DNA of 47,530 nt from a virus, in the IMG/VR virus record IMGVR_UViG_3300036761_001542, positions 1-47,530 of that record, one strand, 5' to 3'. Under the pieces are notes generated by a model. That model had not been told where the DNA came from, made no database searches, and worked only from the letters and a program-made list of their open reading frames with translations. Each line of letters begins with the position of its first letter. The stretch's first letter is position 1. The translations under genes were made by a program, and so were the position numbers. Positions 3,856 through 33,347 of the stretch are shown piece after piece.

Positions 3856-3873
3856 CGAAGGGACGAAAATACA

Positions 3874-4326
3874 ATGAGTGGCGGCGGCGGTAAATCCAGC
3901 GGCAAGACGAGCGACGTCACCGCCCTCATGCCCTACATCTCCATGTTCGAGGGAGAGACGAAGCCGGTGCGCCAGACGGCGCTCTCGCAAGCGCTGGAAG
4001 GTTTGCAGACCGGCGGAGTTGGCGCCCGCATTCCCATGATACAGAATGCCGTCGCGCAGTCACAGGGAGCGCTCGGCGCGACGCTGCAAAACATGCGGTC
4101 GGCTGGAGCTGGCGCGGGTTTGTCGAACTCGCCTTTCTTGACTGGCGAAATGGGATCGACCGCGATGGCCGGCCGGCAGCAAGTCGCAGGCATCGGTCCA
4201 GGGATGGTTTCAAGTACCGTCGGCAGCGGCATGAACGTGTTCAGTCAGATATTGAACGCGATGTCCGGCCAGAGGGTTTCGTCTGGCGCTACGAGCGCCA
4301 AGAACACGCAGACCGGGTTGTTGTAA
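3874..4326 (+). CDS. Internal virion (ejection) protein candidate
   Basis: A 150-residue Ala/Gly/Ser/Met-rich protein with long predicted helices (ALSQALEGLQTGG, AVAQSQGALGATLQNMRSAGA). This composition is typical of DNA-ejection proteins packed inside the head of short-tailed phages. It sits between the Gly-rich ORF and two larger proteins of similar composition, with only 1 nt before the next start. No enzymatic motif is visible. Confidence 0.55.
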   Translation: MSGGGGKSSGKTSDVTALMPYISMFEGETKPVRQTALSQALEGLQTGGVGARIPMIQNAVAQSQGALGATLQNMRSAGAGAGLSNSPFLTGEMGSTAMAGRQQVAGIGPGMVSSTVGSGMNVFSQILNAMSGQRVSSGATSAKNTQTGLL

Positions 4327-7769: not shown

Positions 7770-7912
7770 ATTCGCTTTACTTTCGCCAACGTCGTTCCCG
7801 GCAGGAACACACGGCACCAGATCGGCGCAGTTCGGACGACGCGCCAGACTCGTTTCTGTCGTTCCAGTTCCAAGCCGGCGCACGCAAAGTCTGTCTCGAT
7901 GCGAATGATCAT
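7625..7912 (-). CDS. Small basic hypothetical protein
   Basis: A 95-residue ORF whose ATG overlaps the stop of the DUF3987-type ATPase gene (ATGA), which suggests translational coupling. The first 60 residues look like a compact alpha/beta protein (RVWRVVRTAPIWCRVFLPG, LAKVKRMCARRGWKLEKV). The last 35 residues are Ser/Arg-rich and overlap a hydrophobic ORF in another frame. Unknown function. Confidence 0.5.
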   Translation of the reverse strand: MIIRIETDFACAGLELERQKRVWRVVRTAPIWCRVFLPGTTLAKVKRMCARRGWKLEKVRGKKPASVVSSSRRRRSSSAGPTAAVRPHARTGSRA

Positions 7913-9105
7913 TTTCTTTTCCCATAGGAAATCTTCCTTGACGTCCAGACGTAGATCGTGGCATTCTTGCCCTGCTTTTCTAGGACCTTTCGCGCAGCCA
8001 CCAAAGTTCCTGCGCAGACCTCCGTCCGTTCCTTCGGCAGGCCTCGGTCCGCGGCGCGGCCGATTAGATCATGCGCCGTTATGCCTTCTTCGCCGCTCTG
8101 CTCGATAACTCTCGTCACGAAGCGCAGAGCGTCCGACTCCGGAGTCATGGACGCAAGAGTGATGAGGCGAGGAACGATGGAAAGAGTGCTCTCCGCGTAC
8201 TGCTGGCCTTTTGCCAGATGAGCGCGGCGGATGAACTGCGCGCGGGGATCGGTGTCCTTGGCAAAGAGCATGGCGAGCTTGATCGAAAGATCGTGCGCCC
8301 GCTTCCATGCCGGAAGCAACGCTTCGTCCTGCGGCACGTCGCGCGTCTCATACCACAACTTGTCCAAGGACCAGGCCTGCCGCGTCATCAGCATGCGGCC
8401 CTCGACCTTCGTGGCGTAGGTATGGATACGGCGCTGGAGCCAGCGGCAGAGCTGCGCGTAGCGCGGATGCGCCGTCGGTTCGTGGCAGCGGCGCGTGAAG
8501 TCATAGGCCGCTTCGATGCCGACGGCGCGGGCGAAGAAGCCGCCGGCCAGCGCTTCGCGCGATAACGAAGAGACGACCCATTCCTCTATGCTTCCCGCGA
8601 GCCAGTTCGGATACGGCACGCGGAAGACGTGGGACTTGTTCGTCCGCGTTCCTTCCCGGAACTCATAGTCTCCGCCCGTATACAGCTCCGTCATCAACTT
8701 GATCAAACGGTCCGCTTGATCTCCCATGCCAACGCTGAGCGAGAGTTCCGGCGTGATGAGGTAGAGCCGGGACGGAGTTCCAGCTTTGCGCTTCCCGGCG
8801 CGGTCACTCAGGTAGTCGACGAGATACGGACCCGTGACCTGGCCTCGGTAGTATCCTATTGCTGGGACGTCGTTGACGAGGTGCTGCACGGCATCGATCG
8901 CAACGCCCTTGCCGAGCCCACTCGGGCCGATGAGGAAGACGTAGAGGTTCGGGACGAGGCGGGCGCTGGCGAACTTCTCGTACCATGTACGGTCGCCAAG
9001 CGCTGCGGCGAGCAACGAGATTGCCGACCACTCGAAGAATTGGCGTGGGACCTCGCACTCGCCGACGTGCGCGATGAACGTCTTTATGAACGACCGTCTA
9101 ACCAT
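7909..9105 (-). CDS. DUF3987-type P-loop ATPase (replicative helicase/primase-like)
   Basis: About 398 residues from the ATG at 9,105; a GTG at 9,114 is an alternative start. The Walker A motif is GPSGLGKG, near residue 60-67, preceded by LVPNLYVFLI. The Walker B-like strand is LYLITPELS. This layout matches DUF3987 (YfjI-like) ATPases, which phages often use in place of a DnaB-type helicase or helicase-primase. The C-terminal 90 residues (VTRVIEQSGEEGITAHDLIGRAADRG) look like a winged-helix DNA-binding domain. It lies directly downstream of the DNA polymerase gene, consistent with a role in the replication fork. No separate helicase or primase gene was recognised in the window. Confidence 0.75.
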   Translation of the reverse strand: MVRRSFIKTFIAHVGECEVPRQFFEWSAISLLAAALGDRTWYEKFASARLVPNLYVFLIGPSGLGKGVAIDAVQHLVNDVPAIGYYRGQVTGPYLVDYLSDRAGKRKAGTPSRLYLITPELSLSVGMGDQADRLIKLMTELYTGGDYEFREGTRTNKSHVFRVPYPNWLAGSIEEWVVSSLSREALAGGFFARAVGIEAAYDFTRRCHEPTAHPRYAQLCRWLQRRIHTYATKVEGRMLMTRQAWSLDKLWYETRDVPQDEALLPAWKRAHDLSIKLAMLFAKDTDPRAQFIRRAHLAKGQQYAESTLSIVPRLITLASMTPESDALRFVTRVIEQSGEEGITAHDLIGRAADRGLPKERTEVCAGTLVAARKVLEKQGKNATIYVWTSRKISYGKRK

Positions 9106-9221
9106 TCCGCCCACTTACCGCAGATCCAAGCTGTAAACCACCACTTATGGGAATGATCTAGGAAGTCGGAACACGACCAACGTCCGTAAAATTTGACTGG
9201 CAAGTATGCCTCATTCCTCAT
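9084..9221 (-). CDS. 45-residue protein between polymerase and helicase genes
   Basis: Starts at an ATG overlapping the polymerase stop codon (ATGA) and ends inside the ATPase gene by about 20-30 nt. It is strikingly aromatic: six tryptophans in 45 residues (FYGRWSC, HSHKWWFTAWICGKWAEW). Coupled position suggests it is made together with the replication proteins. No family was recognised. Confidence 0.5.
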   Translation of the reverse strand: MRNEAYLPVKFYGRWSCSDFLDHSHKWWFTAWICGKWAEWLDGRS

Positions 9222-11623
9222 TTCAGTTCCTTGACAACACGCTTGACGTCGGAAAGCGTAGGAAAGGTCTTCCATTCGTGCATGGTTTTCTTTGCCCATG
9301 TCTTTCCAATGGAAAACGTCACCGGGATCGTCATCTCTTCATTGAAATAGACGCGCGGCCGTTCGAGATGTTCACGAATGTAGGTCATGAAGGCGAAAAT
9401 CGACTTAGGATCTGGAGCTACGCTCAGCAAGAGCGAGTCGTGCACTTGCGCGTTCAGGATGACCTTGTCCGGGTGCTTCTGCGCGTAGATGTCTGCCGGG
9501 ATCAATCCCCACTGGTTCAGCAGAATGGCAACTTCGGCTTGTGGGACGAAGCCATACATCTCGTGGAACGTCTTGTAGTCCAGCGCCATGCTGGAGAAGT
9601 CAACGTGCCATCCCCACGTCGTCGCGAGGATGCCTTCCCCTGCGCCTCGGCGGCGCGTCGCCGCGTGCCAGGCGAGCAAAGGTGGTGTCTTGGCGCGAGC
9701 GAGCAGCTGGTTGCATTCCTCAATCGATTTCGAGAGCCCTAGTTCTTTCAGGATCGTGTCGGATAGAGTCTCGGCACCCTCCGCATTTCGGGCGGCATGG
9801 ACGACTGTCTTTCCTACTTCACGCTCGTCTTTCGTCACGTCGGCAGCTGGTTTGTTCAATATATCCGCCGCCATCAGCGTGTGAACGTCGAGCTTGGCTG
9901 GAGAGGTACGCGCGAGCTTGATCATGCTCGGATCGCGGGTCAACATGCGCGTGACGCGCTCTTCGGCTTGAGACAGGTCGAGTTCGAGGAACAGCCAGCC
10001 ACTTTCACTATGTGTCGGAACGAAGTACTGGCGGCGCGTGCGATCGACGTTCTGGAGATTCATCCCGGTTCGGCGCGGGTTCTTTCGAGAGGAAAACCGG
10101 AGCGTCTTCGTGACGTTGCTGTACGAGCAACGGATGACTCCATCCCGGTCCACGAGATCCGGGTTGACGAGCGTCAGGAGCTTCTGATTCTTTCGATAGC
10201 GAAGGAGAAGCGCGATGACGCGCTGAGCCGACGAGGTCAGGGTTCGTTCGGCTGCGATCCGCAGCTTACAAAGGGCCGTCTCGTCCGCTGTCACAGGCAG
10301 TGTTCCGTCGTTTTGCTTTCTTTTTCGGTTGTACTGCCGTGGCAGCTTGAGATCGCGATAGAGGAAAGCTTGAAGTTTCTTGTTCGAGAGCCCACCCTTT
10401 GCTCCCCAAAGGCTATAACCCGCGAGACTCTCTAGCTTCTCACGCAACTGCTCCAAGCGGTCGATGATCTTGGCACGGGCGGTCCGGAGCTGGGGAACGT
10501 TTACCGGGATTCCCTCTAACATCATGCGGATGCGTGGCCAGATGAGCGGTTGTGACAGGCGCTCGTATAACTCGTACAGGCCACGCTCGCGCAGCGTCTT
10601 CAGGTGTTGCTGCGCCAACATCCACGTAACACAGACATCGATTCCGTTCGTCCGCTGGATGGCGGCGGCCGTGGAATAGTCCTTCCACGGAGGTTGCCGG
10701 GTGTGCATCGCAGCCTGGAATTCTAGGGAATGAGATCCGCTCTTCAGTTCCTCTCCCTTCGCGATCTGTATTCCCCAGCGTGGATAGAGGACGTGGTGCA
10801 TGTCCATCGTGTCGTGGACGTAGCGCGTGATCTTGTAACCTTCCTGGATCAAATAGAAGACGTCGTACGGGCCGTTCTGCAAGACCTTGTCGCAGTTATA
10901 CCTCAAGAGCCATTGGATTGACGCACGTTGCGTGTAAGCGTCCAGGACGAGCGCGGTTTTTCCGTCCGCACTGAAACCGACGTACTTGACGCGGCCTCCC
11001 GGAGTCTCGATGTCGATAGCAAGCAAGGACTTCGAGGTCAGCTTCTTGCCGAACTTGACAATGTCGCTTTCGCTTGGCGAAGTCTTCAAGACATACGTGG
11101 GGTGGTCGAGGTCGCGGAACTCCAGCTCTTCTTTGATCTTCCGCCAGTCTGCCAGAATGACGGAGCGGAGGTCAGGCCGGTAGCTCAAGACCATCGGGTG
11201 GAATGTCGGGATGATCTTGACGGTTTTCCCGTTCGGACGCTTCCAGGCTAGAATCGAACCGCGGTACTTCGTGATGGAGGACAAGCCCGTCAGCGCATGT
11301 AGGGCTGTGCTGCCGACCGGAACGACGAGCCACGGATCTTCCCACGTCTTCGCCCGCTTCTGCAAGTCCAGCTCCCACGCGCGGCGCTCCGCGAGCGGGA
11401 TATTGGAAACGGACGAGGCGGAGCCCCGGCGCTCGCAGACGTTTTCCAGCCTAAAATCTATGCGCCGCAGTCCGACCTCCGTCCAGATGTCTTGCTGGAG
11501 CATGCCGGCGTAGCCGACCATCGGGCGCCGCTTCAGGACTTCCTGCGCGCCCGGTGCTTCGGCGACGAAGATCACGCGCGCATTCAACGGACCTTCGCCG
11601 GGAACTTGATGATCTAGGAGCAT
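9218..11623 (-). CDS. UDG-domain / 3'-5' exonuclease / family A DNA polymerase fusion
   Basis: An 801-residue replicative polymerase with three regions. Residues 1-165 resemble a family 4/5 uracil-DNA glycosylase: EAPG at 22-25, PMVGYAG at 34-40 and the FHPMVLSYR motif at 141-149. Residues 195-345 are a DnaQ-like proofreading exonuclease, with DIE at 204-206, NGPYD at 250-254 and D329. Residues 345-801 are the polymerase, with motif A LELDLSQAEERV (catalytic D549), motif B R601/K605/H609 and motif C VHDS (D729). UDG-like N-termini on phage family A polymerases are known (SPO1-type). The O-helix reads HAARNAEG where related phage enzymes usually have HAxNYGMG, so the conserved tyrosine is an asparagine. 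The start overlaps the upstream small ORF (TAATG). Confidence 0.9.
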   Translation of the reverse strand: MLLDHQVPGEGPLNARVIFVAEAPGAQEVLKRRPMVGYAGMLQQDIWTEVGLRRIDFRLENVCERRGSASSVSNIPLAERRAWELDLQKRAKTWEDPWLVVPVGSTALHALTGLSSITKYRGSILAWKRPNGKTVKIIPTFHPMVLSYRPDLRSVILADWRKIKEELEFRDLDHPTYVLKTSPSESDIVKFGKKLTSKSLLAIDIETPGGRVKYVGFSADGKTALVLDAYTQRASIQWLLRYNCDKVLQNGPYDVFYLIQEGYKITRYVHDTMDMHHVLYPRWGIQIAKGEELKSGSHSLEFQAAMHTRQPPWKDYSTAAAIQRTNGIDVCVTWMLAQQHLKTLRERGLYELYERLSQPLIWPRIRMMLEGIPVNVPQLRTARAKIIDRLEQLREKLESLAGYSLWGAKGGLSNKKLQAFLYRDLKLPRQYNRKRKQNDGTLPVTADETALCKLRIAAERTLTSSAQRVIALLLRYRKNQKLLTLVNPDLVDRDGVIRCSYSNVTKTLRFSSRKNPRRTGMNLQNVDRTRRQYFVPTHSESGWLFLELDLSQAEERVTRMLTRDPSMIKLARTSPAKLDVHTLMAADILNKPAADVTKDEREVGKTVVHAARNAEGAETLSDTILKELGLSKSIEECNQLLARAKTPPLLAWHAATRRRGAGEGILATTWGWHVDFSSMALDYKTFHEMYGFVPQAEVAILLNQWGLIPADIYAQKHPDKVILNAQVHDSLLLSVAPDPKSIFAFMTYIREHLERPRVYFNEEMTIPVTFSIGKTWAKKTMHEWKTFPTLSDVKRVVKELK

Positions 11624-11978: not shown

Positions 11979-12207
11979 TTTCACCTTTCTTCTCTTCCTC
12001 GTAAGGGACGGCCACGCGGCGGTAGAACTCCTGTTGTGTGCAGGTCAATGCGCCCATGATCCCGTTGATGGTCTCATAACTCCGCCCTGCTAGATAGAGG
12101 TAGGATAGACAGAGGTCGGTGATGCAGAAGTTTAGCTCACCGGGCGAGCACGGCTTCCTATGCCGTCTGCGGATGTCCGTTCGAGCCGCTTTCGAGATGT
12201 AGGGCAT
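11962..12207 (-). CDS. Conserved phage protein of the DUF6899 type
   Basis: An 81-residue protein from the ATG at 12,207, which has AAAGGA 5 nt upstream. It begins MPYISKAARTDI and contains SPGELNFCITDLC, the Ile-rich stretch ETINGIMGALTCTQQEFYRR and the ending VPYEEEKKGENGDVF. This pattern is shared by many phage proteins of the MPYIS...GELNY...EFYRR...ENGDVY family, whose function is not known. It overlaps the zinc-finger gene downstream by 17 nt. Confidence 0.7.
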   Translation of the reverse strand: MPYISKAARTDIRRRHRKPCSPGELNFCITDLCLSYLYLAGRSYETINGIMGALTCTQQEFYRRVAVPYEEEKKGENGDVF

Positions 12208-12326
12208 TTCAATCCTTTCCACTCATGACAGGCACAGGCGCAGGTTTTCGACGTGTGGAGGCAGCCATAGCAGTCTTCCGTGATGCACCAGCCGCTCTTG
12301 TATTTACTTGGCTGCAGTGACGCCAA
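12132..12326 (-). CDS. Putative Cys/His-rich microprotein
   Basis: The only start codon in frame is a TTG at 12,326, giving 64 residues and overlaps with both neighbours. The central segment has C-x4-C-x2-C, H and CACACH (WCITEDCYGCLHTSKTCACACHE is read across about residues 12-34), a pattern like small metal-binding phage proteins. It fills the otherwise empty 96 nt between the DUF5664 and DUF6899 genes. No ribosome binding site is visible; the true C-terminus may also be shorter. Confidence 0.4.
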   Translation of the reverse strand: MASLQPSKYKSGWCITEDCYGCLHTSKTCACACHEWKGLKCPTSRKRLERTSADGIGSRARPVS

Positions 12327-13911: not shown

Positions 13912-14217
13912 CTAAAGGTTTACAGACGTGCGCGACACGCTCGCGCGGCGGTGGTACGCTTCGATCTCGGTAGGGGAAAGGGCCGGGATGGTGGGCGGAA
14001 AATTTATCGGGCCTGGATGCTGGGCATTGTGTGGAGTTCGCTGGATACCGATCAGGCCGCTCACTAGGACGTGCCCGCAGCGCTGGCACGAGTACGGATA
14101 ATCTCCTTTCTTGTCGCATAGAGGACAATACAGCCAGTCATTTCCATGACACTTCTGGCACACTACGGACGGCATGGAGCTAGGACGGAGTAGAAAGATG
14201 TAGTTCGGAACGCTCAT
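13912..14217 (-). CDS. Triple CxxC zinc-ribbon protein
   Basis: A 101-residue protein whose ATG overlaps the stop codon of the Sak4-like ATPase gene (ATGA). It has CQKCHGNDWLYCPLCDKKG followed by SCQRCG, i.e. three CxxC pairs similar to a rubredoxin or DnaJ-type zinc ribbon. The C-terminal half is Pro/Thr-rich and probably unstructured. Its position between ATPase and SSB genes suggests a recombination or replication accessory role. Confidence 0.6.
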   Translation of the reverse strand: MSVPNYIFLLRPSSMPSVVCQKCHGNDWLYCPLCDKKGDYPYSCQRCGHVLVSGLIGIQRTPHNAQHPGPINFPPTIPALSPTEIEAYHRRASVSRTSVNL

Positions 14218-15038
14218 GGCTTCTCTCCCCACACGGCCGCGTAGCTAGCTAGACAATGATTCTTCGCGCCAATCTGCGTCGAACAGTGCCAGCTATCGTC
14301 TCTCTGCGTTTGAAACCGTCTCACGTACCGCTGTCTCTTTTCGCTCCAGTCTGCGTGCAAGTAGTATACCTCTCCCCAGCCGATGGCTATGCCGCCTTCC
14401 GGATCTCCGATGCGGCCCGGCAGTGACAAGCTCTTGCCGATCTCGTTACCTTCAGCGTCACGCTTGCCACGGACATGGCACGTTAGGACGAGATTCGTGT
14501 GGAGAGACGGAAGACCTGTCATCAAAAGCTCTTCGCAGGCATCCGCGGCCCCGATTCTCCACTGTCTGGGATCTTTGGCTCCCGGATTCAAGACGTATTG
14601 TTCGTATTTCAAGGCATGCAGGACGAAGTACGTGGCGGAGTCCAGAACGATGGTCTTCCACTTCTTGAATTCGTCATAGAGCTGTTCGCACCTGGACAGG
14701 AGCTTGGCGAAGGCGCGGGCCTCACGGACGGCGCGCTGGCCGAAGATGTCAGGACCGCCCTTCAGCATGCCCGGATCATGGTAGTGTTCGATACGGACGA
14801 TGCCGTCCGGCCGCGTGATTTCCTCGACACGTCCGGTCGGACCCTTGATCCTTTTTACTGGAAAAGTTTCGATGACGCGCCCCGTGGCTTCGTCGAGCTT
14901 GATGCGGTAGGGGCCGGCTTTGTCCGGCGGGTCCGTGAGCAAAACGAGCATGGGCTTCGGCCACGTGACGGCTGCCGTTGACTTGCCGTCTCCAGTCGCG
15001 GCGATGAGAATGGTGTGGGTCGGCGGGTGTTCAGGCAT
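14214..15038 (-). CDS. RecA-fold P-loop ATPase, Sak4-like
   Basis: A 274-residue single-domain NTPase. Walker A is AATGDGKST (residues 13-21) and Walker B is TIVLDSAT (129-136), followed by a conserved LVLTCHVRGKRD strand near residue 185, the usual sensor-like position. The size, an N-terminal Walker A and an SSB-like gene close downstream are typical of phage Sak4-type RecA-like recombinases or annealing factors. A neighbouring Cas4/RecB-like nuclease supports a recombination module. Confidence 0.7.
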   Translation of the reverse strand: MPEHPPTHTILIAATGDGKSTAAVTWPKPMLVLLTDPPDKAGPYRIKLDEATGRVIETFPVKRIKGPTGRVEEITRPDGIVRIEHYHDPGMLKGGPDIFGQRAVREARAFAKLLSRCEQLYDEFKKWKTIVLDSATYFVLHALKYEQYVLNPGAKDPRQWRIGAADACEELLMTGLPSLHTNLVLTCHVRGKRDAEGNEIGKSLSLPGRIGDPEGGIAIGWGEVYYLHADWSEKRQRYVRRFQTQRDDSWHCSTQIGAKNHCLASYAAVWGEKP

Positions 15039-15284: not shown

Positions 15285-15347
15285 TCAGATGTCAATGAGA
15301 AGAAGCCATGCGACGATGAGGCCGAAGAAGAGCAGGAGTTCCGTCAT
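15285..15347 (-). CDS. 20-residue single-pass membrane microprotein
   Basis: The ATG overlaps the nuclease stop codon (ATGA) and the next gene starts 15 nt after its stop. The peptide is MTELLLFFGLIVAWLLLIDI, almost wholly a membrane helix. It fills a gap that would otherwise be unexplained between two tightly packed genes. Size alone keeps confidence moderate. Confidence 0.45.
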   Translation of the reverse strand: MTELLLFFGLIVAWLLLIDI

Positions 15348-16297
15348 CGCCGCTTTTCTCCCTTGGCGTAGGCGAGAGGGTTCCAGACGTCTTCGACGAA
15401 CAACTCGCGCAAGTGTTGGAGGGGCCGGCCGTGGGCGCAGAACTCTTGGAACTCGCACCAGTAGCAGGAATCGAAGTGTGCCCCTTCCATCGGCAGACTC
15501 CGGACTCCGTTGTCGCCGTGGACACTGGCGTGCTCGCGGAGTGCTCGGAAACGTTTCGCTAGAGTCAAGGCATCGAGGCGAGCCCGCTCCAGCATTCTCG
15601 GCGTGCGCGTGACGATGAAGATCCGGGACGTGGCGTGCAGAAGCCCGCACTCACGGTAAGCCAGCTTGTGCTTAGAACAGGTTCGGTTCGAGTCAGGCAG
15701 AACCGGAAGCTCAATCGCATTGACGTAGGCGCGCAGGACCGCGGAGCCGGTATGATGCTCTAGGGCAATGCAATAGTTGGAGAGTTGGGCGGTCAGGCGG
15801 AACTTCTTTACCCACGGCGAAGAGATCCGGCCGGTGAACTTGTTGTCGAGGGGCGCGACGATACCGTCGCGGTCCTGGACAATCAGGTCCATACGTCCGG
15901 TCAAGATGACGGAATCGCCGATGTCGGCTTGAAATCCGACTTCGACGCCTTTCTTTCCGAGCGGCAGAGTGAAGGGTAAACCGTCGATCGGATGCGCGTC
16001 AATCCAGGCCTGGACGACCCGGCGCAGGTTGCGATATGAAAGCCGGGGCTCGATGACGACGCCCTCGCTCTCATTCTTCACGCACCATGCTTTGTAGGGT
16101 TTGAGTGCCGCGAGGGCCTTCTTCCGGTCGCCTGTACGGAAGTAGACGGCTAACGCTTCGTGGCCGGCGGCGCCACTTTCCAGGACCGCGACTTCGTGGC
16201 TGGAAGTCAAGTGCAAGCAATGCCGCACGAAGGCACGAGTCGAGCAAACTAGCGTCGAGAGCGTTGAACTGTCAATGTAAAGCAATTCTTCTGCCAC
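15344..16297 (-). CDS. PD-(D/E)XK nuclease of the RecB/Cas4 type
   Basis: A 317-residue protein. The GTG at 16,297 is preferred because GGAGGAAC lies directly upstream; a longer start at 16,336 lacks this. The central part GRMDLIVQD followed by PLDNKFTGR is the D...DxK core of RecB-family nucleases, preceded by a putative helix with HEA (GAAGHEALAVYF). Four C-terminal cysteines (CSKH and later CYWCEFQEFC) match the iron-sulfur cluster pattern of Cas4/AddB-like enzymes. Phages use such exonucleases with RecA-like or annealing proteins, as here. Confidence 0.75.
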   Translation of the reverse strand: MAEELLYIDSSTLSTLVCSTRAFVRHCLHLTSSHEVAVLESGAAGHEALAVYFRTGDRKKALAALKPYKAWCVKNESEGVVIEPRLSYRNLRRVVQAWIDAHPIDGLPFTLPLGKKGVEVGFQADIGDSVILTGRMDLIVQDRDGIVAPLDNKFTGRISSPWVKKFRLTAQLSNYCIALEHHTGSAVLRAYVNAIELPVLPDSNRTCSKHKLAYRECGLLHATSRIFIVTRTPRMLERARLDALTLAKRFRALREHASVHGDNGVRSLPMEGAHFDSCYWCEFQEFCAHGRPLQHLRELFVEDVWNPLAYAKGEKRR

Positions 16298-16451
16298 TGT
16301 TCCTCCAGATTTGATCCACGTCTCTGCCGATCGCACCTATCGCGACCATGATGTTGTGTTGGTTGACCGCCAACTCCAGCGCCCACGACGGCGGCCTTCT
16401 CGTACAGAACCACTTGACTATCCGCATGATTCTCTCAATGAGAGCGCTCAT
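16272..16451 (-). CDS. 59-residue basic amphipathic protein
   Basis: Starts at an ATG inside the 3' end of the upstream coiled-coil gene and runs 26 nt into the nuclease gene. It is basic with hydrophobic helices (LIERIMRIVKWFCTRRPP, WALELAVNQHNIMVAIGAIG). No separate ribosome binding site is evident, so it would depend on coupling. Unknown function. Confidence 0.45.
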   Translation of the reverse strand: MSALIERIMRIVKWFCTRRPPSWALELAVNQHNIMVAIGAIGRDVDQIWRNSGRRIALH

Positions 16452-18090: not shown

Positions 18091-19028
18091 GAAGCTTTCG
18101 GTTCGATGAATGCGAAACCTTCGATGCCGAAAGTCTTGCACAAGGCGAGCGTGGAAGTCAACCATTCGTGCAATCCGGGCACGTCTGCAAGGGAGGTCAG
18201 CTTGCAAGGAATGGACAGGAACAACGTCTCCTGCGTGGAATGCTCGGCGAAGTCCTTTTGACAGATGCCGCACGGCGCCGCGCTGGGCTCCAGATACATC
18301 GTTTTCGAGCGCGAGATGTGCTTGGCTGTAATCATGAAGAGGTGCGGCAGGCCGATACGGTCGATCTTCACGGCAGTGCAGCCAGTAGGGGGCGGCGACA
18401 GAGCCGCTAGACATTGCGCGCGGCGCCAGCGCTCCGGATCGTAGACGAAAAGCTTCGTGTCGAGCCAGAGCTGCGCCCACGGGGAGACAGTCGAGTAGAC
18501 TGTGACGTGCATGGCTTCAATGTCACGGTCGAACGTTTCACCGGAAACAGCACACGTGGACGCGGCGGCGTAGAGTTCTGCGGTCGCCGGACCGATCTCT
18601 GCCCAGCTCCAGCCGCCTTTCCACGAGACACAGCGGCGCAGGAAGCCCTCATGCACCTGCCAGGAACCATCCTTTCCCGGTAAGTCGAGCCGACCCGCCA
18701 GAACTTGATCACACCAGTTAGAGAACTTCCAGGTCGCGCCAGTGGCGGCACCGGGAAAGAATTGGTCTCCCGAGCGCCAGTGTCCGCAGAAGTAGATGGT
18801 GCGAGCCAGCTGGGATAGAGCCTCGCTCGTGAAGGCGTCGAAGCGGACGCGGTTCTCGGGGCTCAGCGGAATTTTCAGGTCTGCAGCTTGATGAAGCGAT
18901 TCGAGCGTGGGAATCGCGTCCAGGTACAGGTTGCGACGGTTCGGCAGGAGCTTTTTCCAGGAAGGTGTCGCTAGCCAGAACCACGCGGCTTGATAGTCGA
19001 AATCGTTCTGCTTCATTTTTTCCGTCAT
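18087..19028 (-). CDS. Hypothetical protein, 313 residues
   Basis: Starts at an ATG overlapping the upstream stop (ATGA), so the 61-residue upstream extension is rejected. Aromatic and Trp-rich (FDYQAAWFWLATPSWKKLLP, WKFSNWCDQVLAG, FLRRCVSWKGGWSWAEIGPA), with a CGICQKDF motif near the C-terminal third that may bind metal. Its length is large for this region. No family recognised. Confidence 0.6.
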   Translation of the reverse strand: MTEKMKQNDFDYQAAWFWLATPSWKKLLPNRRNLYLDAIPTLESLHQAADLKIPLSPENRVRFDAFTSEALSQLARTIYFCGHWRSGDQFFPGAATGATWKFSNWCDQVLAGRLDLPGKDGSWQVHEGFLRRCVSWKGGWSWAEIGPATAELYAAASTCAVSGETFDRDIEAMHVTVYSTVSPWAQLWLDTKLFVYDPERWRRAQCLAALSPPPTGCTAVKIDRIGLPHLFMITAKHISRSKTMYLEPSAAPCGICQKDFAEHSTQETLFLSIPCKLTSLADVPGLHEWLTSTLALCKTFGIEGFAFIEPKAS

Positions 19029-19417
19029 TTGATTCTCCGGAAGTTGAAAGCGTCGCCGCTCGAAGAGAGACGGCCGCGGAAGGTTTTGCCGTCGACCACG
19101 AACGTGATGGAGCGGCCCCGGACGATCGGATGCTCGGCGACGACGGTTCCAATGAACGTTTTTACCTGCCCGCCGATGTAGTAAAACGTGCCGCTTTGCC
19201 CGACTTGGCACTGCTTCAAGCCGGAGATCTCACCGGCGCTCAGCAGCGAGTTGTGTTTATCGGCTTGCTCGGGTGTGATCTCCGGATGCTTACCGTCCGG
19301 GCTGAAAACCCCGTGCTCCGGGAAGTCCATCAGATAGCCGAGGCAGCAGCTGGGTTCGCCGCTGTCGTCGACTTCGACGAAAAGCCCGGAATGGTTCTCG
19401 ATCTTCGCCTTTTCCAT
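19025..19417 (-). CDS. Hypothetical protein, first gene after the repeat-rich gap
   Basis: A 130-residue protein with a strong ribosome binding site (GGAGGAT, about 4 nt before the ATG). Beta-rich (GLFVEVDDSGEPSCCLGYL, YYIGGQVKTFIGTVVAEH, ITFVVDGKTFRGRL). It is the first gene read away from the 19,418-19,695 control region, so its transcript probably starts there. Unknown function. Confidence 0.6.
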   Translation of the reverse strand: MEKAKIENHSGLFVEVDDSGEPSCCLGYLMDFPEHGVFSPDGKHPEITPEQADKHNSLLSAGEISGLKQCQVGQSGTFYYIGGQVKTFIGTVVAEHPIVRGRSITFVVDGKTFRGRLSSSGDAFNFRRIK

Positions 19418-19490
19418 CTATCCTCCATTTTTGCCTGTTGACACTTAGTTTTTCAGTTTACGCCTTATTCTCTTGGACGTCGATGGGACC

Positions 19491-19682
19491 TGTTACATTC
19501 AATGGTCCCTGTTACATGCAACTATGACAAATGTCATGGTTTTTGCTAAAGTCCGCTGAAATCAGGGGGCAAAAACCGATGGACGTGTTACATTCAGGGG
19601 GGGGCCTTACGGCACCTTGTAACAGAGTCCATTGATTAAATTTTGCTGGCACCCGCGCGAGGGTACCCCCCCGAATGTAACA
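19491..19682. repeat. TGTTACA motif array (iteron- or operator-like)
   Basis: Forward copies TGTTACATTC at 19,491-19,500, TGTTACATGC at 19,510-19,519 and TGTTACATTC at 19,586-19,595. Reverse copies are TGTTACA on the minus strand at 19,618-19,624 and TGTTACATTC at 19,673-19,682. The first two are phased 19 bp apart and share longer flanks (GGnnCCTGTTACATnCAA). Single copies also occur near 22,531 and 23,234. Confidence 0.75.
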
Positions 19683-19686
19683 CGTC
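19582..19686. repeat. Inverted repeat with G/C-tract arms
   Basis: GACGTGTTACATTC (19,582-19,595) is matched perfectly by its reverse complement at 19,673-19,686. The arms extend through one unpaired A into a run of eight G (19,597-19,604) facing seven C (19,666-19,672). The arms contain one TGTTACATTC site each, so this could be a cruciform or a pair of sites brought together by a bound protein. Confidence 0.7.
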
Positions 19687-19695
19687 GCATGGTTT

Positions 19696-20025
19696 TCAAC
19701 GAGCATGATCGTGAAGATACTCGCCCGCTGCTTCGATGAAATCGCTCGCCGAAACACCACAGCTGGGACAGGCGATTGTGCCGTCTGTGCCGTCGTGCTC
19801 GCAGTACCCGCGTCCACGCTTGGGACGGCGCTTGAACACGGTGACGTGGCCGCCAAGCTGCTTCTGGACGCAGCTAAGGCTCCAGCCAAGATCCTGCGCT
19901 GTGCTCGGATAGTCCCAGTCAACTTGGATAAGAGCGGTGTTGCGAGGTTCACCTCTATCATGCCGGCCCATTGCTGAGCCGCCATGTAGCAGGAAAGCGT
20001 AGCCTAGATCTTCAATCCACGGCAT
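19696..20025 (-). CDS. Small protein with CxH/CxxC metal-binding motif
   Basis: A 109-residue protein from the ATG at 20,025, which has GGAGAAG upstream; the ATG at 20,055 is less likely. The N-terminus is aromatic (MPWIEDLGYAFLLHGG) and the second half has GYCEHDGTDGTIACPSCGVS, a C-x-H...C-x2-C arrangement. It is the last gene before the repeat-rich gap. Unknown family. Confidence 0.55.
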   Translation of the reverse strand: MPWIEDLGYAFLLHGGSAMGRHDRGEPRNTALIQVDWDYPSTAQDLGWSLSCVQKQLGGHVTVFKRRPKRGRGYCEHDGTDGTIACPSCGVSASDFIEAAGEYLHDHAR

Positions 20026-20260
20026 GACTTCTTCTCCTTCCCTTTCTCCGAGCATCCGCTGCTCGGCGCTGTAGGTCGACGTGAGCCGCGAGGGTCAACG
20101 TCGAACGTGGTACGAAGTCGACGGAGCTGAATTCCTGGAAGTCATCGAGCCAGCGGTGTTGGGCTTCCAGGCAGTCAAGGCATAGGTCGCGGGCGTAGGC
20201 TGGACGCTGGTGGCATTCGGCGCAGAGTAGACGTTCCGGTTCCAGGTCAGCTTCTTCCAT
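20012..20260 (-). CDS. Small zinc-ribbon protein
   Basis: An 82-residue protein. CAECHQRPAYARDLCLDC is a compact four-cysteine zinc ribbon near residue 13-30, followed by a basic C-terminus (RRAADARRKGRRRSHA) that could bind nucleic acid. Its ATG overlaps the previous stop as TGATG. No specific family recognised. Confidence 0.6.
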   Translation of the reverse strand: MEEADLEPERLLCAECHQRPAYARDLCLDCLEAQHRWLDDFQEFSSVDFVPRSTLTLAAHVDLQRRAADARRKGRRRSHAVD

Positions 20261-20526
20261 CAGATTGCAACCTTCATGGAAAAGGTAACATGGTCACCAG
20301 CGCGCTGTCGTGCTGCGGCTTCATTCGCGCACAATTCCGCGTTGAAGGCGCCGCCACCACCACTATACCCGAAGCGATTGACGTCGAAGAAAAACACGCG
20401 CCAACCCGGCCAGCAGCCGCTTTCGTCGACGTGCGCGTGACGTGTGCCGTCGCCGGAAGTGTAGGAGTTTCTCGGGGCGGAATCACAAGAGCACAAGCCT
20501 CTGTACTGACTTCGACACTTGCTCAT
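20260..20526 (-). CDS. Cys-rich N-terminus hypothetical protein
   Basis: An 88-residue protein with a clear ribosome binding site (GGGAGGT, 6 nt before the ATG). It begins MSKCRSQYRGLCSC and contains WRVFFFDVNRFGYSGGGGAFNAELC followed by a helical alanine-rich end. Neighbours overlap at both ends. Unknown function. Confidence 0.55.
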   Translation of the reverse strand: MSKCRSQYRGLCSCDSAPRNSYTSGDGTRHAHVDESGCWPGWRVFFFDVNRFGYSGGGGAFNAELCANEAAARQRAGDHVTFSMKVAI

Positions 20527-20714
20527 ATTTCAACCTCCCGGTAAGGTCTGACGTGGAATAGGTCTCTCTCGGGGAAGCGTTCGGCACGGGACGGACGGAT
20601 CGGACCTGGACATCCCAGAGGGCAGGAAGAGATTGATGGCTGCTCGTGACGGCATGCGGGAAACGTCAGCGCTGCTCCAAGGAGTAAGAGGAACGCTAGT
20701 CTGAGGGCTGTCAT
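20523..20714 (-). CDS. Small signal-anchored or exported protein
   Basis: Sixty-three residues from the ATG at 20,714. The N-terminus MTALRLAFLLLLGAALTFPAC is a Sec signal or membrane anchor; FPAC is not a good lipobox. The rest is Cys/Pro-rich. Its stop overlaps the next ATG (ATGA). No ribosome binding site was seen, and the upstream gene ends 11 nt earlier. Confidence 0.5.
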   Translation of the reverse strand: MTALRLAFLLLLGAALTFPACRHEQPSISSCPLGCPGPIRPSRAERFPERDLFHVRPYREVEI

Positions 20715-20725
20715 GCGGTATCGGC

Positions 20726-21184
20726 TCAGCTGGTGAAGCCTGCTGGTTTCCACACTTTCAACCTCGCACGCCACAAGCTCCGACGCTCCGGGGCAGACTG
20801 CAGCTGTAGGCAACCTCGGGACGTGAACGGATGTCGGGCGTCACTATAGGAAGACACAGCTACCCACAATTCGCGGCCGACGTTGTCGCATGAATTGTAT
20901 TGCTCGCGCGTGAGCCAATGGTAAACGCCGGGCTCTTTGAAGAGAATGGCTCGTGTCATGGTGAGACGAATGTCGCGCGTGACGGGACGGCTCTCGTACT
21001 GGTGCACGCGGTAAGAGCCCGGCGCCGGTAGGTCTATGCGATCAAGCCACGTTTCGCAAGCATCGCGGGTTTCTCGGAAGACGCGAACCGAGCGGTGCGC
21101 GCAGCTGTCTTTGTAGCGAAGCCTGTCCAGGTATGACAAGAGCCGGACGGCACGCCGGATCTCCAAGTATTCGACCTGAGTCAT
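20726..21184 (-). CDS. Hypothetical protein
   Basis: A 152-residue protein from the ATG overlapping the upstream stop (ATGA). Helical N-terminus (EYLEIRRAVRLLSYLDRLRYKD), then a mixed region with SYRVHQYESRPV and YHWLTREQYN. Moderately basic. No family or catalytic motif recognised. Confidence 0.5.
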   Translation of the reverse strand: MTQVEYLEIRRAVRLLSYLDRLRYKDSCAHRSVRVFRETRDACETWLDRIDLPAPGSYRVHQYESRPVTRDIRLTMTRAILFKEPGVYHWLTREQYNSCDNVGRELWVAVSSYSDARHPFTSRGCLQLQSAPERRSLWRARLKVWKPAGFTS

Positions 21185-21717
21185 ACGGGTTCGCCGGTCG
21201 CTACAGAGTAGAGGGGATACGGTGCCACGCCGGTATCGAAAAAATCGTGGCCAAAGCAATATGCTCGGTTCCCGGGGTGCGGTTCAGTGAGAGGGTTCCG
21301 CAGATGGCAAGCTCCAGGCGCGCACGCCGAGCAAAATTGCGCGTAGGTAAAGTATGGCGACTTTGTGATAAAGATATCCGTGTCATCGCCGCTTTGCTGG
21401 GCGGCATACTCGCCGTCGTCAAGCGTGAATTCTAACGGGTCCTCGGCATACACGTGCGAGGAATCGAAGAGAGTTGAGCACGTCGAGCAGGCATAGTCGC
21501 TGCAGTCATGTTCGGGCGCGGTGTAGTTCTCTCGTTCATCGTCGCTTGGCTCATGGACCACGTTTTCGCAGGTAGGGCAGGTCGGTTCGCCGTACTGAGC
21601 CTCGCTGCTGTCTAACCACGCTTGGAGAACGTCCCATATGGGTAGCACGCCGTATCGGATGCCATTGGCAGGATCTCGGTTCGCTGTTCCCATGCCGTAA
21701 TCTATTCCTCGGTTCAT
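21181..21717 (-). CDS. Conserved phage protein with CxxC pairs
   Basis: A 178-residue protein from the ATG at 21,717, which has GGAAAGGGGAAAGAG upstream. It begins MNRGIDYGMGTANRDPANG, then IRYGVLPIWDVLQAW, a start that I have seen in other phage proteins of unknown function. CPTC, CSDYACSTC and a later CSACAPGAC give at least two zinc-binding pairs. The middle is acidic. Confidence 0.6.
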   Translation of the reverse strand: MNRGIDYGMGTANRDPANGIRYGVLPIWDVLQAWLDSSEAQYGEPTCPTCENVVHEPSDDERENYTAPEHDCSDYACSTCSTLFDSSHVYAEDPLEFTLDDGEYAAQQSGDDTDIFITKSPYFTYAQFCSACAPGACHLRNPLTEPHPGNRAYCFGHDFFDTGVAPYPLYSVATGEPV

Positions 21718-21754
21718 CTCTTTCCCCTTTCCGTGCCGTGTCGGCACTGTTTTG

Positions 21755-21949
21755 TCACTTGAGCTGAGTCATCGCCGCACGGACAAACGCCATGATGCAT
21801 GGCATACACACGTACCAGTAGCGGTTCATCGAGTGCGGTGTGATGCCTACCTGCCATAACTGTCCCAGCCGACCGCAATGGGCACAGCACTTTTTTCGTA
21901 GCGTGTTGCTGCGCGCCGCGACGGTTTCTAAGCTCACTTCTTTTGCCAT
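21755..21949 (-). CDS. Small zinc-ribbon protein
   Basis: A 64-residue protein with CCAHCGRLGQLWQ and WYVCMPCIMAF, a four-cysteine (CxxC...CxxC) zinc ribbon with about 28 residues between pairs. A purine-rich ribosome binding site precedes the ATG. Unknown partner or target. Confidence 0.6.
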   Translation of the reverse strand: MAKEVSLETVAARSNTLRKKCCAHCGRLGQLWQVGITPHSMNRYWYVCMPCIMAFVRAAMTQLK

Positions 21950-21990
21950 CGTCTCTTTTCCTCTCGCCAGCCTTGCGCCGCTGGCTGCCG

Positions 21991-22239
21991 CTATGCTGTT
22001 GCCTCGAAGCGTGTAACTTTCTGGGGTTCACCGATCGGATGCAGCGTGATGACAGTCGTTGGCGCCGTGTGCCGCAATGGATAGTCGCCCGGGTGTTCGC
22101 CGAGGTAACGGGTGCGCCACCGCTCCCATTCCCGCTGCAATCGGCGCGCAGCAGCAGCTGATACCCGCGGCACGTCATGTGCGCCGGCATGCGTGACGTG
22201 TCCCGCTGCGTCGAAAGCGTAAAGCTGAACTCGTGTCAT
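21991..22239 (-). CDS. Hypothetical protein
   Basis: An 82-residue protein with AGGAGTGAG upstream of the ATG. It starts as a beta strand (TRVQLYAFDAAGHV), followed by an arginine-rich helix (AAAARRLQREWERWRTRYLG) and a final strand (TVITLHPIGEP). Possibly nucleic-acid or protein binding; no family recognised. Confidence 0.55.
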   Translation of the reverse strand: MTRVQLYAFDAAGHVTHAGAHDVPRVSAAAARRLQREWERWRTRYLGEHPGDYPLRHTAPTTVITLHPIGEPQKVTRFEATA

Positions 22240-22275
22240 GGTCTCACTCCTACCGGCCTTGCGCCGCCGGCTGAC

Positions 22276-22497
22276 TTACGGTCTCGCCTCTGTGAACGCG
22301 ATTAAATAGCCGTCGATGGTTTCGATGTGCGCGCCGCAAGCGAGGGCCATTCGCTTCCACTCCATCGCGCACGGTGCCATACAGCTCGGGCCATGCGCGG
22401 CGCGATGCGTCTGAAACCAGCAGCGGGTCCACTTTAGCGGTGGGCATGTTGTCCATGCGTCTGCCGCGCGCCCTTTGGGGTGTGCCGTGTTGGCCAT
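22276..22497 (-). CDS. Hypothetical protein, possibly frameshifted
   Basis: A 73-residue frame starting at an ATG 5 nt after the previous stop. Only its last ~30 residues (MEWKRMALACGAHIETIDGYLIAF) look like normal protein; the first part is Cys/Trp-rich and odd. A second frame on the same strand (MPTAKVDPLLVSDASRRAWP, then ELYGTVRDG) looks normal just upstream. A single-base shift near 22,360-22,375 would join the two. It may be a sequencing error, a real mutation or two overlapping ORFs. Confidence 0.4.
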   Translation of the reverse strand: MANTAHPKGRAADAWTTCPPLKWTRCWFQTHRAAHGPSCMAPCAMEWKRMALACGAHIETIDGYLIAFTEARP

Positions 22498-22502
22498 CTG
22501 CT

Positions 22503-22688
22503 TCACCTGCTCCTTTGCTCCGTAGGTTCTTGTAACATGGTCGAACGCGAGGTGCAAGGGAAAAGTGGAATAGTTGTATATACAAGTGTCCTCAGACCTC
22601 GCCTACAGTTCTCACAGTACACGCAAGCGCTGTACAAGACGCATTGACAAGCAGGACACGAATGGACGTATCGTAGGTCACCGTCCAT
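22503..22688 (-). CDS. Small Cys-rich metal-binding protein
   Basis: A 61-residue protein starting 1 nt after the previous gene's stop. CPACQCVLYSACVYCENC contains several CxxC pairs of zinc-ribbon type; the C-terminal half is Thr/Ser/Arg-rich. No family recognised. Confidence 0.5.
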   Translation of the reverse strand: MDGDLRYVHSCPACQCVLYSACVYCENCRRGLRTLVYTTIPLFPCTSRSTMLQEPTEQRSR

Positions 22689-22689
22689 G

Positions 22690-23007
22690 TCAGTACCCTA
22701 AGACGCACTGCTGGTGCCCGCAGAAGCTTACCGTCCGCCCGTTAAACCGGAACCGTCGCCGTTCATCCGTGTACGTGTGTTGGGTGATCGGGATATCACG
22801 CCACAACATGCCACCGTCGCCGGCGTCGTTCCATTCGAAGCAACGAACACGGCCGCGTCCGTACAGGTCGTTTAGCCGTGTCAAGGCGGACAATACTCTA
22901 GCGTTGATGTCCTCGCGCTTGATCATGTCTGTTTCCTTCGTAGCCGCAGCCGCAGCCTCGAACGCGCACGCCGGGCAGAACGCTCCTGCTGGTAGCTTAT
23001 GTGCCAT
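22690..23007 (-). CDS. Hypothetical protein with CxxC and CGHQQC motifs
   Basis: A 105-residue protein. The N-terminus has FCPACAFEAAAAATK, and the C-terminus RRRFRFNGRTVSFCGHQQC, so two cysteine pairs at opposite ends could form one zinc site. The middle helix (REDINARVLSALTRLNDLYG) is well formed. Second gene of the leftward arm. Confidence 0.55.
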   Translation of the reverse strand: MAHKLPAGAFCPACAFEAAAAATKETDMIKREDINARVLSALTRLNDLYGRGRVRCFEWNDAGDGGMLWRDIPITQHTYTDERRRFRFNGRTVSFCGHQQCVLGY

Positions 23008-23219: not shown

Positions 23220-23298
23220 GCAGCGATGGTGTCTGTTACAAAGATACGGCTGTTTTTTCCTTGCCCCCATGTCGAGCGTGTAACGACTGGTGAGCTGA

Positions 23299-26579: not shown

Positions 26580-26653
26580 CGGAGCGTGGTGTAGCATGGT
26601 AGCACCCGTGGCCTGGGACCACGAGGTCGCAGGTTCGAATCCTGCCGCTCCGA
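26580..26653 (+). tRNA. tRNA-Pro (anticodon TGG)
   Basis: A complete 74-nt cloverleaf: acceptor CGGAGCG/CGCTCCG, D-stem GTGT/GCAC, anticodon stem CGTGG/CCACG with loop CCTGGGA (anticodon TGG, reading CCA/CCG), 5-nt variable loop, T-stem GCAGG/CCTGC with loop TTCGAAT, discriminator A. No CCA is encoded. The base before the anticodon is C rather than the near-universal U. It lies 1 nt after a stop codon, upstream of several proline-rich genes. Confidence 0.9.
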
Positions 26654-32088: not shown

Positions 32089-32856
32089 ATGAAAAAATTA
32101 ACCGCCGCCATTCTCCTGCTGGTTGTCAGCTGGGCAGTCCAAGCAGCGGCGGCTACGCCGACTCCGACGCGGCGGCCGACATGGACGCTGACGCCGACGC
32201 CTACCGTTACCGATACTCCTGCTCCAACCTGGACGCTGGTAGCGACGCTCACTCCGCTGCCCTGCGATCCCTGCGCCGCGACTCCGACCAGGACAGCCAC
32301 GCCGACGTCGACGGAAACCTCGACGCCGACCGATACGCCCACACAGACGCCGACGGGCACCTCGACGAGCACGGCGACTAATACTCCCACACCCACGCCG
32401 ACACCGTCGCAGACTCCGACCCGGACAGATAATGATTGTCCGGCCGGAGAGTTCTTCTGTCATCAACCGAATTCAGATGCGTTGACGTGCTGCACGCCGG
32501 TGCCGGAGACGCCGATCCCGACTGACACGCCGCTTCCTACCTCTACGTTTACTCCGACTCCAACGGCGACGCCGACGGAGACGCCGACCAGCAAGACGCC
32601 ATCCGCGACGCCAACGTCGACCCTGAGCGGAGTCGAGCCGATCTGCGTCAACTACCCGTCGAATCAGGTGGCGCAGTGCTCGCCGACGCCGGTCAACACG
32701 GCGACGCCGACCAGCCTAACGCCGAGCCCGACTCCGACGTTCACGCCGACCAACACGTTCACACCCACGAACACCTTCACACCCACGAATACAAAGACTC
32801 CAACGACACTGGTTGAGATTCCGATCAACCGAAGCAACCTAGGCGGAGGTTTCTGA
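32089..32856 (+). CDS. Exported Pro/Thr-repeat protein
   Basis: A 255-residue protein beginning with a Sec signal peptide ([22 protein letters not shown]) at an ATG with GGAG upstream. The mature protein is nearly all TPT repeats, broken by short Cys-containing islands ([32 protein letters not shown]). It ends in the hydrophobic-basic tail [14 protein letters not shown]. No folded enzyme domain is visible. It begins 1 nt after the previous stop and overlaps the next start as TGATG. Confidence 0.65.
32149..32815 (+). repeat. Pro-Thr coding repeats
   Basis: Imperfect repeats coding TPT/TPTPT at about 32,149-32,430, 32,507-32,625 and 32,690-32,815, the last with an 18-nt period around TFTPTN. 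They share sequence with the blocks in neighbouring genes, so homologous exchange between the genes is possible. Confidence 0.65.
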
Positions 32857-33347
32857 TGAGACCCTTTTCGCGTGTGCTTACTTTTTTCGTGCTTTGGCTC
32901 TTGCTGCTCTACGGTCGCGTGTGGGCGACCGTGACGTCGAACTCCGTGGTGCTGCCGCAGACCCCGCAACTGGGCGTCGTGCAGCTCACGAACGCGAGCG
33001 GGACCACGCCCGCCACGCTCTACACGGGGGCGACGAACGCCACCAAGTGCGTCGGCGCGATAGCATCGTCAACCGACACGAGCGGCCGTGACGTGTCGAT
33101 CTTCCTCATACGCGGCGCGACGACGTACTTGCTGACGACGGTCACCGTCGCGGCCGGCTCCGGCTACGCAGGCGGCACACCCCCGGTGGCTCTGATGACC
33201 GCGGCCGTTTGGCCCGGACTGCCGGTCGACCAGAGCGGCACGCCGTACTTCTACCTGGCCTCGGGCGACCTGCTCAAGGTCGGCACCACGACCACGATCA
33301 CCGCTGGCAAGTTGGTCGGAGTGACGATCGTATGCGCCGATTTCTAA
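32856..33347 (+). CDS. Signal-peptide version of a phage decoration-type protein
   Basis: A 163-residue protein with GGAGG before the ATG. The first 26 residues are a signal peptide (VLTFFVLWLLLLYGRVWA). The rest (LGVVQLTNASG, TLYTGATNATKCVGAIASS, VWPGLPVDQSGTPYFYL, LKVGTTTTITAGKLV) follows a pattern known from small phage structural proteins (TPxLGVVQ...YTgGTNaT...LPvD..GtPYlyL.sGd.Lkv). Those relatives normally have no signal peptide. It has no Pro/Thr repeats. Confidence 0.6.
   Translation: MRPFSRVLTFFVLWLLLLYGRVWATVTSNSVVLPQTPQLGVVQLTNASGTTPATLYTGATNATKCVGAIASSTDTSGRDVSIFLIRGATTYLLTTVTVAAGSGYAGGTPPVALMTAAVWPGLPVDQSGTPYFYLASGDLLKVGTTTTITAGKLVGVTIVCADF

Follow-up and report, generated by a model that had tools for sequence, protein, structure and literature searches.

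The non-coding gap at positions 19418-19695 of the window, by which is meant the whole 47,530-bp virus record analysed here, is probably a replication origin of the kind that combines iterons with a DNA unwinding element (DUE). A rough probability of 0.55 is assigned to this reading, which is drawn from sequence and is favoured over an operator array. It stands on computed features: the sites themselves and how far they exceed chance, the weakness of the duplex, a location where the well-adapted replication genes begin, and relatives that show the same layout with other motifs; a five-site array at the easiest-to-melt spot of the record, together with that layout built on a different repeat in relatives, makes a replication start the most likely function of the gap. 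A phage DNA-binding protein would occupy the five ~20-bp sites, three of them forward and two inverted, and the region would be bent or wrapped; the adjoining T-rich/AT-rich stretch, the weakest duplex of the genome, would then melt, and melting would let the DUF3987-type primase-helicase and the PolA-family polymerase load (Table 1).

The gap lies inside the leftward part of the genome and has a GC content of 0.47, against 0.60 for the genome; the open reading frame (ORF) that runs into and across it has a negative coding score. The first-pass annotation had placed it at the head of the replication genes, and strongly coding leftward genes do start there. The coding signal of g19025 is 0.31 log2-odds per codon, against 0.32 for the polymerase, whereas the small leftward ORFs at 19696-23007 have weak or negative scores, which suggests that they were acquired recently, are read in the wrong frame or are mostly non-coding DNA. 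It follows from this contrast that the array heads a well-adapted set of replication genes. PHROG and Pfam searches of the small early genes recognised only the KTSC protein, the PD-(D/E)XK nuclease, a dGTP diphosphohydrolase-like protein, a weak AAA match and DUF3987; the genes adjoining the gap matched no PHROG or Pfam family, and no initiator gene was recognised. Single-sequence AlphaFold models of g19025 and g18087 were unusable (pLDDT 44 and 36, respectively). No nucleotide matches to 17-24 kb were found in phage records and no close relatives of g19696 among viral contigs, and a search for the polymerase in bacterial genomes returned two distant contigs only.

Table 1. Features of the window, with the candidate iterons and unwinding element of the gap.
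Feature	Position	Strand or direction	Remarks
DUF3987-type primase-helicase	7909-9114	leftward	401 aa; DUF3987 match weak
PolA-family polymerase	9218-11623	leftward	
tRNA-Arg(cct)	12126-12210	+	predicted; sits among leftward genes
AAA match	14214-15038	leftward	weak
PD-(D/E)XK nuclease	15344-16336	leftward	
dATP/dGTP diphosphohydrolase-like, nucleoside deoxyribosyltransferase-like and KTSC proteins		leftward	
g19025	19025-19417	-	130 aa; matches no known family; first leftward gene past the array with a strong coding signal
Non-coding gap with repeat array, origin-like	19418-19695		coding-signal contrast, GC
Candidate DNA unwinding element	19445-19544		least stable 100 bp of record; nearest-neighbour profile
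Iteron 1, TCGATGGGACCTGTTACAT	19480-19498	+	core 19491-19497
Iteron 2, TCAATGGTCCCTGTTACAT	19499-19517	+	core 19510-19516; tandem with iteron 1
Small inverted repeat, ATGACA-AA-TGTCAT	19524-19537		
Hairpin, GGTTTTTGC (19538-19546) / GCAAAAACC (19569-19577)	19538-19577		perfect 9-bp inverted repeat
Left arm of 31-nt inverted repeat	19572-19602	+	holds iteron 3 and G run
Iteron 3, ACCGATGGACGTGTTACATTC	19575-19595	+	core 19586-19592
Iteron 4, AATCAATGGACTCTGTTACA	19618-19637	-	core 19618-19624; inverted
Right arm of 31-nt inverted repeat	19666-19696	-	holds iteron 5 and C run
Iteron 5, ACCATGCGACGTGTTACATTC	19673-19693	-	core 19676-19682; inverted
Possible degenerate outlying site, CGATGGTGTCTGTTACA	23234-23240	+	doubtful; divergent leader
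terS-like gene	23559 (start)	rightward	first of the rightward genes
terL	24242	rightward	
tRNA-Pro(tgg)	26580-26653	+	predicted
Portal	37245	rightward	further along rightward block

The heptad TGTTACA occurs eight times in the window, where 1.44 copies are expected, and none of 100 shuffles had as many. Five of the copies fall in the 278-bp gap, in both orientations and with the first two 19 bp apart, exactly as first described, and outside it the motif is near chance (three copies, about 1.4 expected). Among 3000 dinucleotide shuffles of the gap, none gave any 7-mer five times and one gave a 7-mer four times; the other intergenic gaps of more than 100 bp in the window hold at most three copies of any 7-mer. 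The 7-bp motif of the first-pass annotation is real, but the actual unit is longer, about 20 bp, and reads YRATGG-N3/4-cTGTTACAttc, where four of the five copies have RATGG 4-5 bp ahead of the core and in four the core is followed by a T. Copies 1 and 2 form a tandem with a 19-bp period, copy 3 lies another 76 bp on, and the last two copies are inverted. The additional copies that had been pointed out near 22,531 and 23,234 also exist, and one at 2906 had been overlooked. The flanks of the 22,531 and 2906 copies are ordinary (their scores are equalled at 29 and 43% of positions, respectively) and both are chance occurrences, whereas the 23,234 copy, with marginal flanks (score equalled by 2.8% of positions) and the next-best PWM score genome-wide (9.2 bits, against 32-38 bits for the five), is a weak candidate.

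The inverted repeats reported for the gap are likewise present. The GGTTTTTGC/GCAAAAACC pair is perfect over 9 bp, and GACGTGTTACATTC (19582-19595 and 19673-19686) forms a perfect 14-bp inverted repeat which, extended by G8/C7, has 31-nt arms that are 84% complementary; the element described as a 14-bp palindrome is there, but really consists of two 6-bp arms around AA.

Origins of the iteron and DUE kind are marked by several specific repeats of ~7-22 bp in excess of chance and by adjacent AT-rich, easily unwound DNA, and both are found in the gap, the latter at 19445-19544. The gene for the cognate initiator of such an origin usually lies next to it. The nearest-neighbour dG of this stretch is 128.4 kcal/mol, against a mean of 152.2 kcal/mol (z -3.6); the 60-bp stability minimum beside it ranks third in the record, and most relatives have a more extreme weak spot (z -4 to -7.7). 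A weak duplex is partly expected by default in the non-coding control region of a GC-rich phage, which counts against an origin. Cumulative GC skew, for which a peak at 19.4-19.7 kb had been anticipated, instead has its maximum at 21.6 kb and no peak at the gap; skew extremes near the arrays of relatives have mixed signs, and skew is non-discriminating.

The relatives used for comparison comprised about 15 IMG/VR records, found via capsid and terminase profiles, and two GenBank phages, MW202489 and Caulobacter phage Kuura, which have a related polymerase. Sixteen records, the window among them, were read over their full length, those with both modules having a common gene order, and clusters of 7-10-mers on both strands were scanned for over the terminase-to-nuclease interval and over whole genomes. 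The whole-genome scan of the 16 records yielded seven clusters with log10E < -3, all seven in the terminase-to-nuclease interval and each with a different motif; the array of the window (TGTTACA, five copies) scored log10E -3.4. The relative G005 carries 16 copies of CGTACCA/TGGTACG in both orientations within 190 bp (49923-50112; log10E -30), ~0.8 kb before its PD-(D/E)XK nuclease, and a second, separate array of CAGGATA around an AT core, its AT-richest DNA, at 41.7-42.2 kb. Thirteen copies of GTACACA/TGTGTAC occupy 190 bp of G014 (32756-32944; log10E -21), directly after a 623-aa gene with no Pfam match and ~60 bp from a ribbon-helix-helix (RHH) gene at 33003-33203. CTTAGCA is present 12 times at 3859-4208 of G015 (log10E -15 genome-wide), AGCCAGC seven times in G009 and CTGTGCGC six times in G013, and in G001 TGCTSAGCAATT is arranged around an AT-rich core. 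The G001 array was missed by the genome-wide test because its motif is also dispersed: no 9-bp palindrome of that record is more over-represented than TGCTSAGCA (18 copies, 0.65 expected), which has five copies in the array and the others mostly scattered over coding regions. The array region of G001 recurs in G008, with 100% identity over 1.1 kb, and the two were counted as one.

Neither a repeat array nor the weak-duplex feature was seen in G007, some other records (such as G011) are without a clear array, and the cluster scan also hits less related sequence, for example inside structural genes of L028. In the 21 relatives searched with TGTTACATTC only scattered matches were obtained, so the motif itself is not conserved. 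Homology among the heptads of the window, G005 and G014 (TGTTACA, TGGTACG and TGTGTAC) was considered and rejected, the similarity being too short to support the claim. At 20852-21107 of G003, just upstream of terS, a long (CA)n(GA)n tract has GTTCCGGAAC palindromes on either side.

The least stable 100 bp of the genome fall in the terminase-to-nuclease interval in 12 of 13 distinct genomes, the window included, where 3.0 would be expected (P about 1e-7, a value that sets the interval against its share of the sequence and not against other non-coding DNA). In the window, G001, G005, G009, G010 and G015 they fall within the array or repeat region itself; in G003, G013 and G014 the distance to the repeats is about 0.1-0.6 kb. 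Repeats near weak DNA in the relatives are often inverted about an AT-rich core, and their sequence differs in nearly every phage. In MW202489, pairs of GCCATTTCC are inverted around the least stable spot of the genome (38.4-38.6 kb), with a short A-rich core, and in Kuura copies of GGGCAGT on one side and of AACTGCCC on the other enclose an A-rich core (43.0-43.3 kb) that is not the least stable DNA of its genome. Weak duplexes are common in the non-coding DNA of GC-rich phages, and the two signals are therefore not fully independent.

Phages often have AT-rich control regions in which operators are repeated, and the repeats of the window directly precede g19025. They might accordingly be a transcription-control array, at which a phage repressor or activator would control the leftward replication operon from 19,417 with no role in starting replication, although this appears unlikely. 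Among the relatives, the 13 TGTGTAC copies of G014 are near the RHH gene and about 2.2 kb from an HTH gene, and the genome-wide dispersal of TGCTSAGCA in G001 fits a regulatory or DNA-organising site. The window motif, however, is not dispersed beyond chance, no leftward promoter is convincing (the sole sigma-70-like match being rightward), and no RHH gene was recognised in the window by Pfam PF01402, which divergent RHH proteins can escape; moreover, an operator needs no weakest duplex at its spot. The first-pass annotation had allowed for an origin or a master operator: the former is supported by the weakest 100 bp, the gene boundary and the analogous arrays of relatives, whereas the latter is weakened by the confinement of the motif. 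Nothing in the analysis connects the array with the zinc-finger or KTSC proteins that the annotation put forward for binding assays.

It is improbable that the gap is a packaging site, similar to pac or cosB, with its repeats serving as binding sites for the small terminase, as in lambda cosB. The arrays or repeats of G003, G005, G010, G013 and G015 are about 1-2.5 kb from the terminase genes, but the gap of the window ends 3.9 kb from the terS-like gene and so is not adjacent to it, the G009 array is about 8 kb from terL, and such a site has no need of the weakest duplex. Marginally less probable still is an element acting at the RNA level, in which a long hairpin of the leftward transcript would be a processing site or attenuator. 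The gap strand does fold better than its shuffles (z -4.6 as RNA; minimum free energy -96.5 against -72.7 kcal/mol, with no shuffle as good), but the fold is equally strong as DNA (z -4.7), tandem iterons 1 and 2 are outside the long stem, and the gap gave no Rfam match and contains no terminator-like site.

Database searches with ATGGNNNCTGTTACATTCA gave 14 single matches in viral contigs, about the chance number by our own estimate, and no arrays; the motif pair TGTTACA-N4-ATGG-N4-TGTTACA gave five matches, all in AT-rich contigs with no more copies nearby. These near-chance matches, and the copies 1, 2 and 4 that terminal repeats would leave unexplained, make a remnant of a small MITE-like mobile element very improbable despite the resemblance of the 31-nt imperfect inverted repeats to terminal ones, and chance repeats are excluded by the shuffles.

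If the gap is a replication origin, it can be proposed, tentatively, that the lineage has kept its origin at one location and with one anatomy, the weakest duplex together with iterons that are often inverted, while almost every member has acquired a different recognition sequence. With such turnover the initiator would diversify quickly, in the manner of plasmid incompatibility groups, the pressure perhaps coming from satellites, defence systems or co-infecting relatives, and the lineage would provide a natural series for initiator-origin co-evolution. Most environmental phage origins are unmapped because their initiators are unrecognisable, and a signature read from sequence only, consisting of an array and the weakest duplex in the interval from terminase to replication nuclease, points to a single candidate region in most phages of this lineage. 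The similar layout in Kuura, a GenBank phage reported from a Caulobacter host, makes the proposal directly testable.

Several known systems share parts of this arrangement. The stoperators of Cluster A mycobacteriophages are asymmetric repeated protein-binding sites, as the candidate sites of the window would be, and G001 has dispersed copies of its array motif; the window differs in that its motif is confined to one gap and not dispersed genome-wide. The RHH protein omega of pSM19035 reads heptad arrays (parS) with multiple ~7-bp units, direct and inverted. Direct and inverted ~7-bp units are shared, and an RHH gene accompanies the array of G014 and, judged by eye, that of G005, whereas no RHH gene was found in the window, and its sites are ~20 bp and widely spaced. 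In satellite phage P4, ori and crr contain short type I repeats that are read by the alpha primase-helicase through its C-terminal domain. Short repeats in both orientations near AT-rich DNA, and a genome encoding a primase-helicase, recall P4, but the window protein is a 401-aa DUF3987-type protein and the repeat sequences differ, so that the likeness is best treated as a lead.

For the phage satellite PLE, an iteron-dependent origin has been shown (PMC7145576). Among characterised phages the closest example is Bacillus phage SPP1, in which oriL and oriR consist of direct repeats bound by gp38 and an AT-rich DUE (PMC6316719). Unlike SPP1, the window has its sites in both orientations, one such region was seen, and no SPP1-type initiator was recognised; like SPP1, which is lytic and of similar size, it has an array beside an AT-rich, easily melted stretch among early replication genes. 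The proposed origin anatomy is of a known kind, and the added interest would lie in rapid motif turnover at a conserved position.
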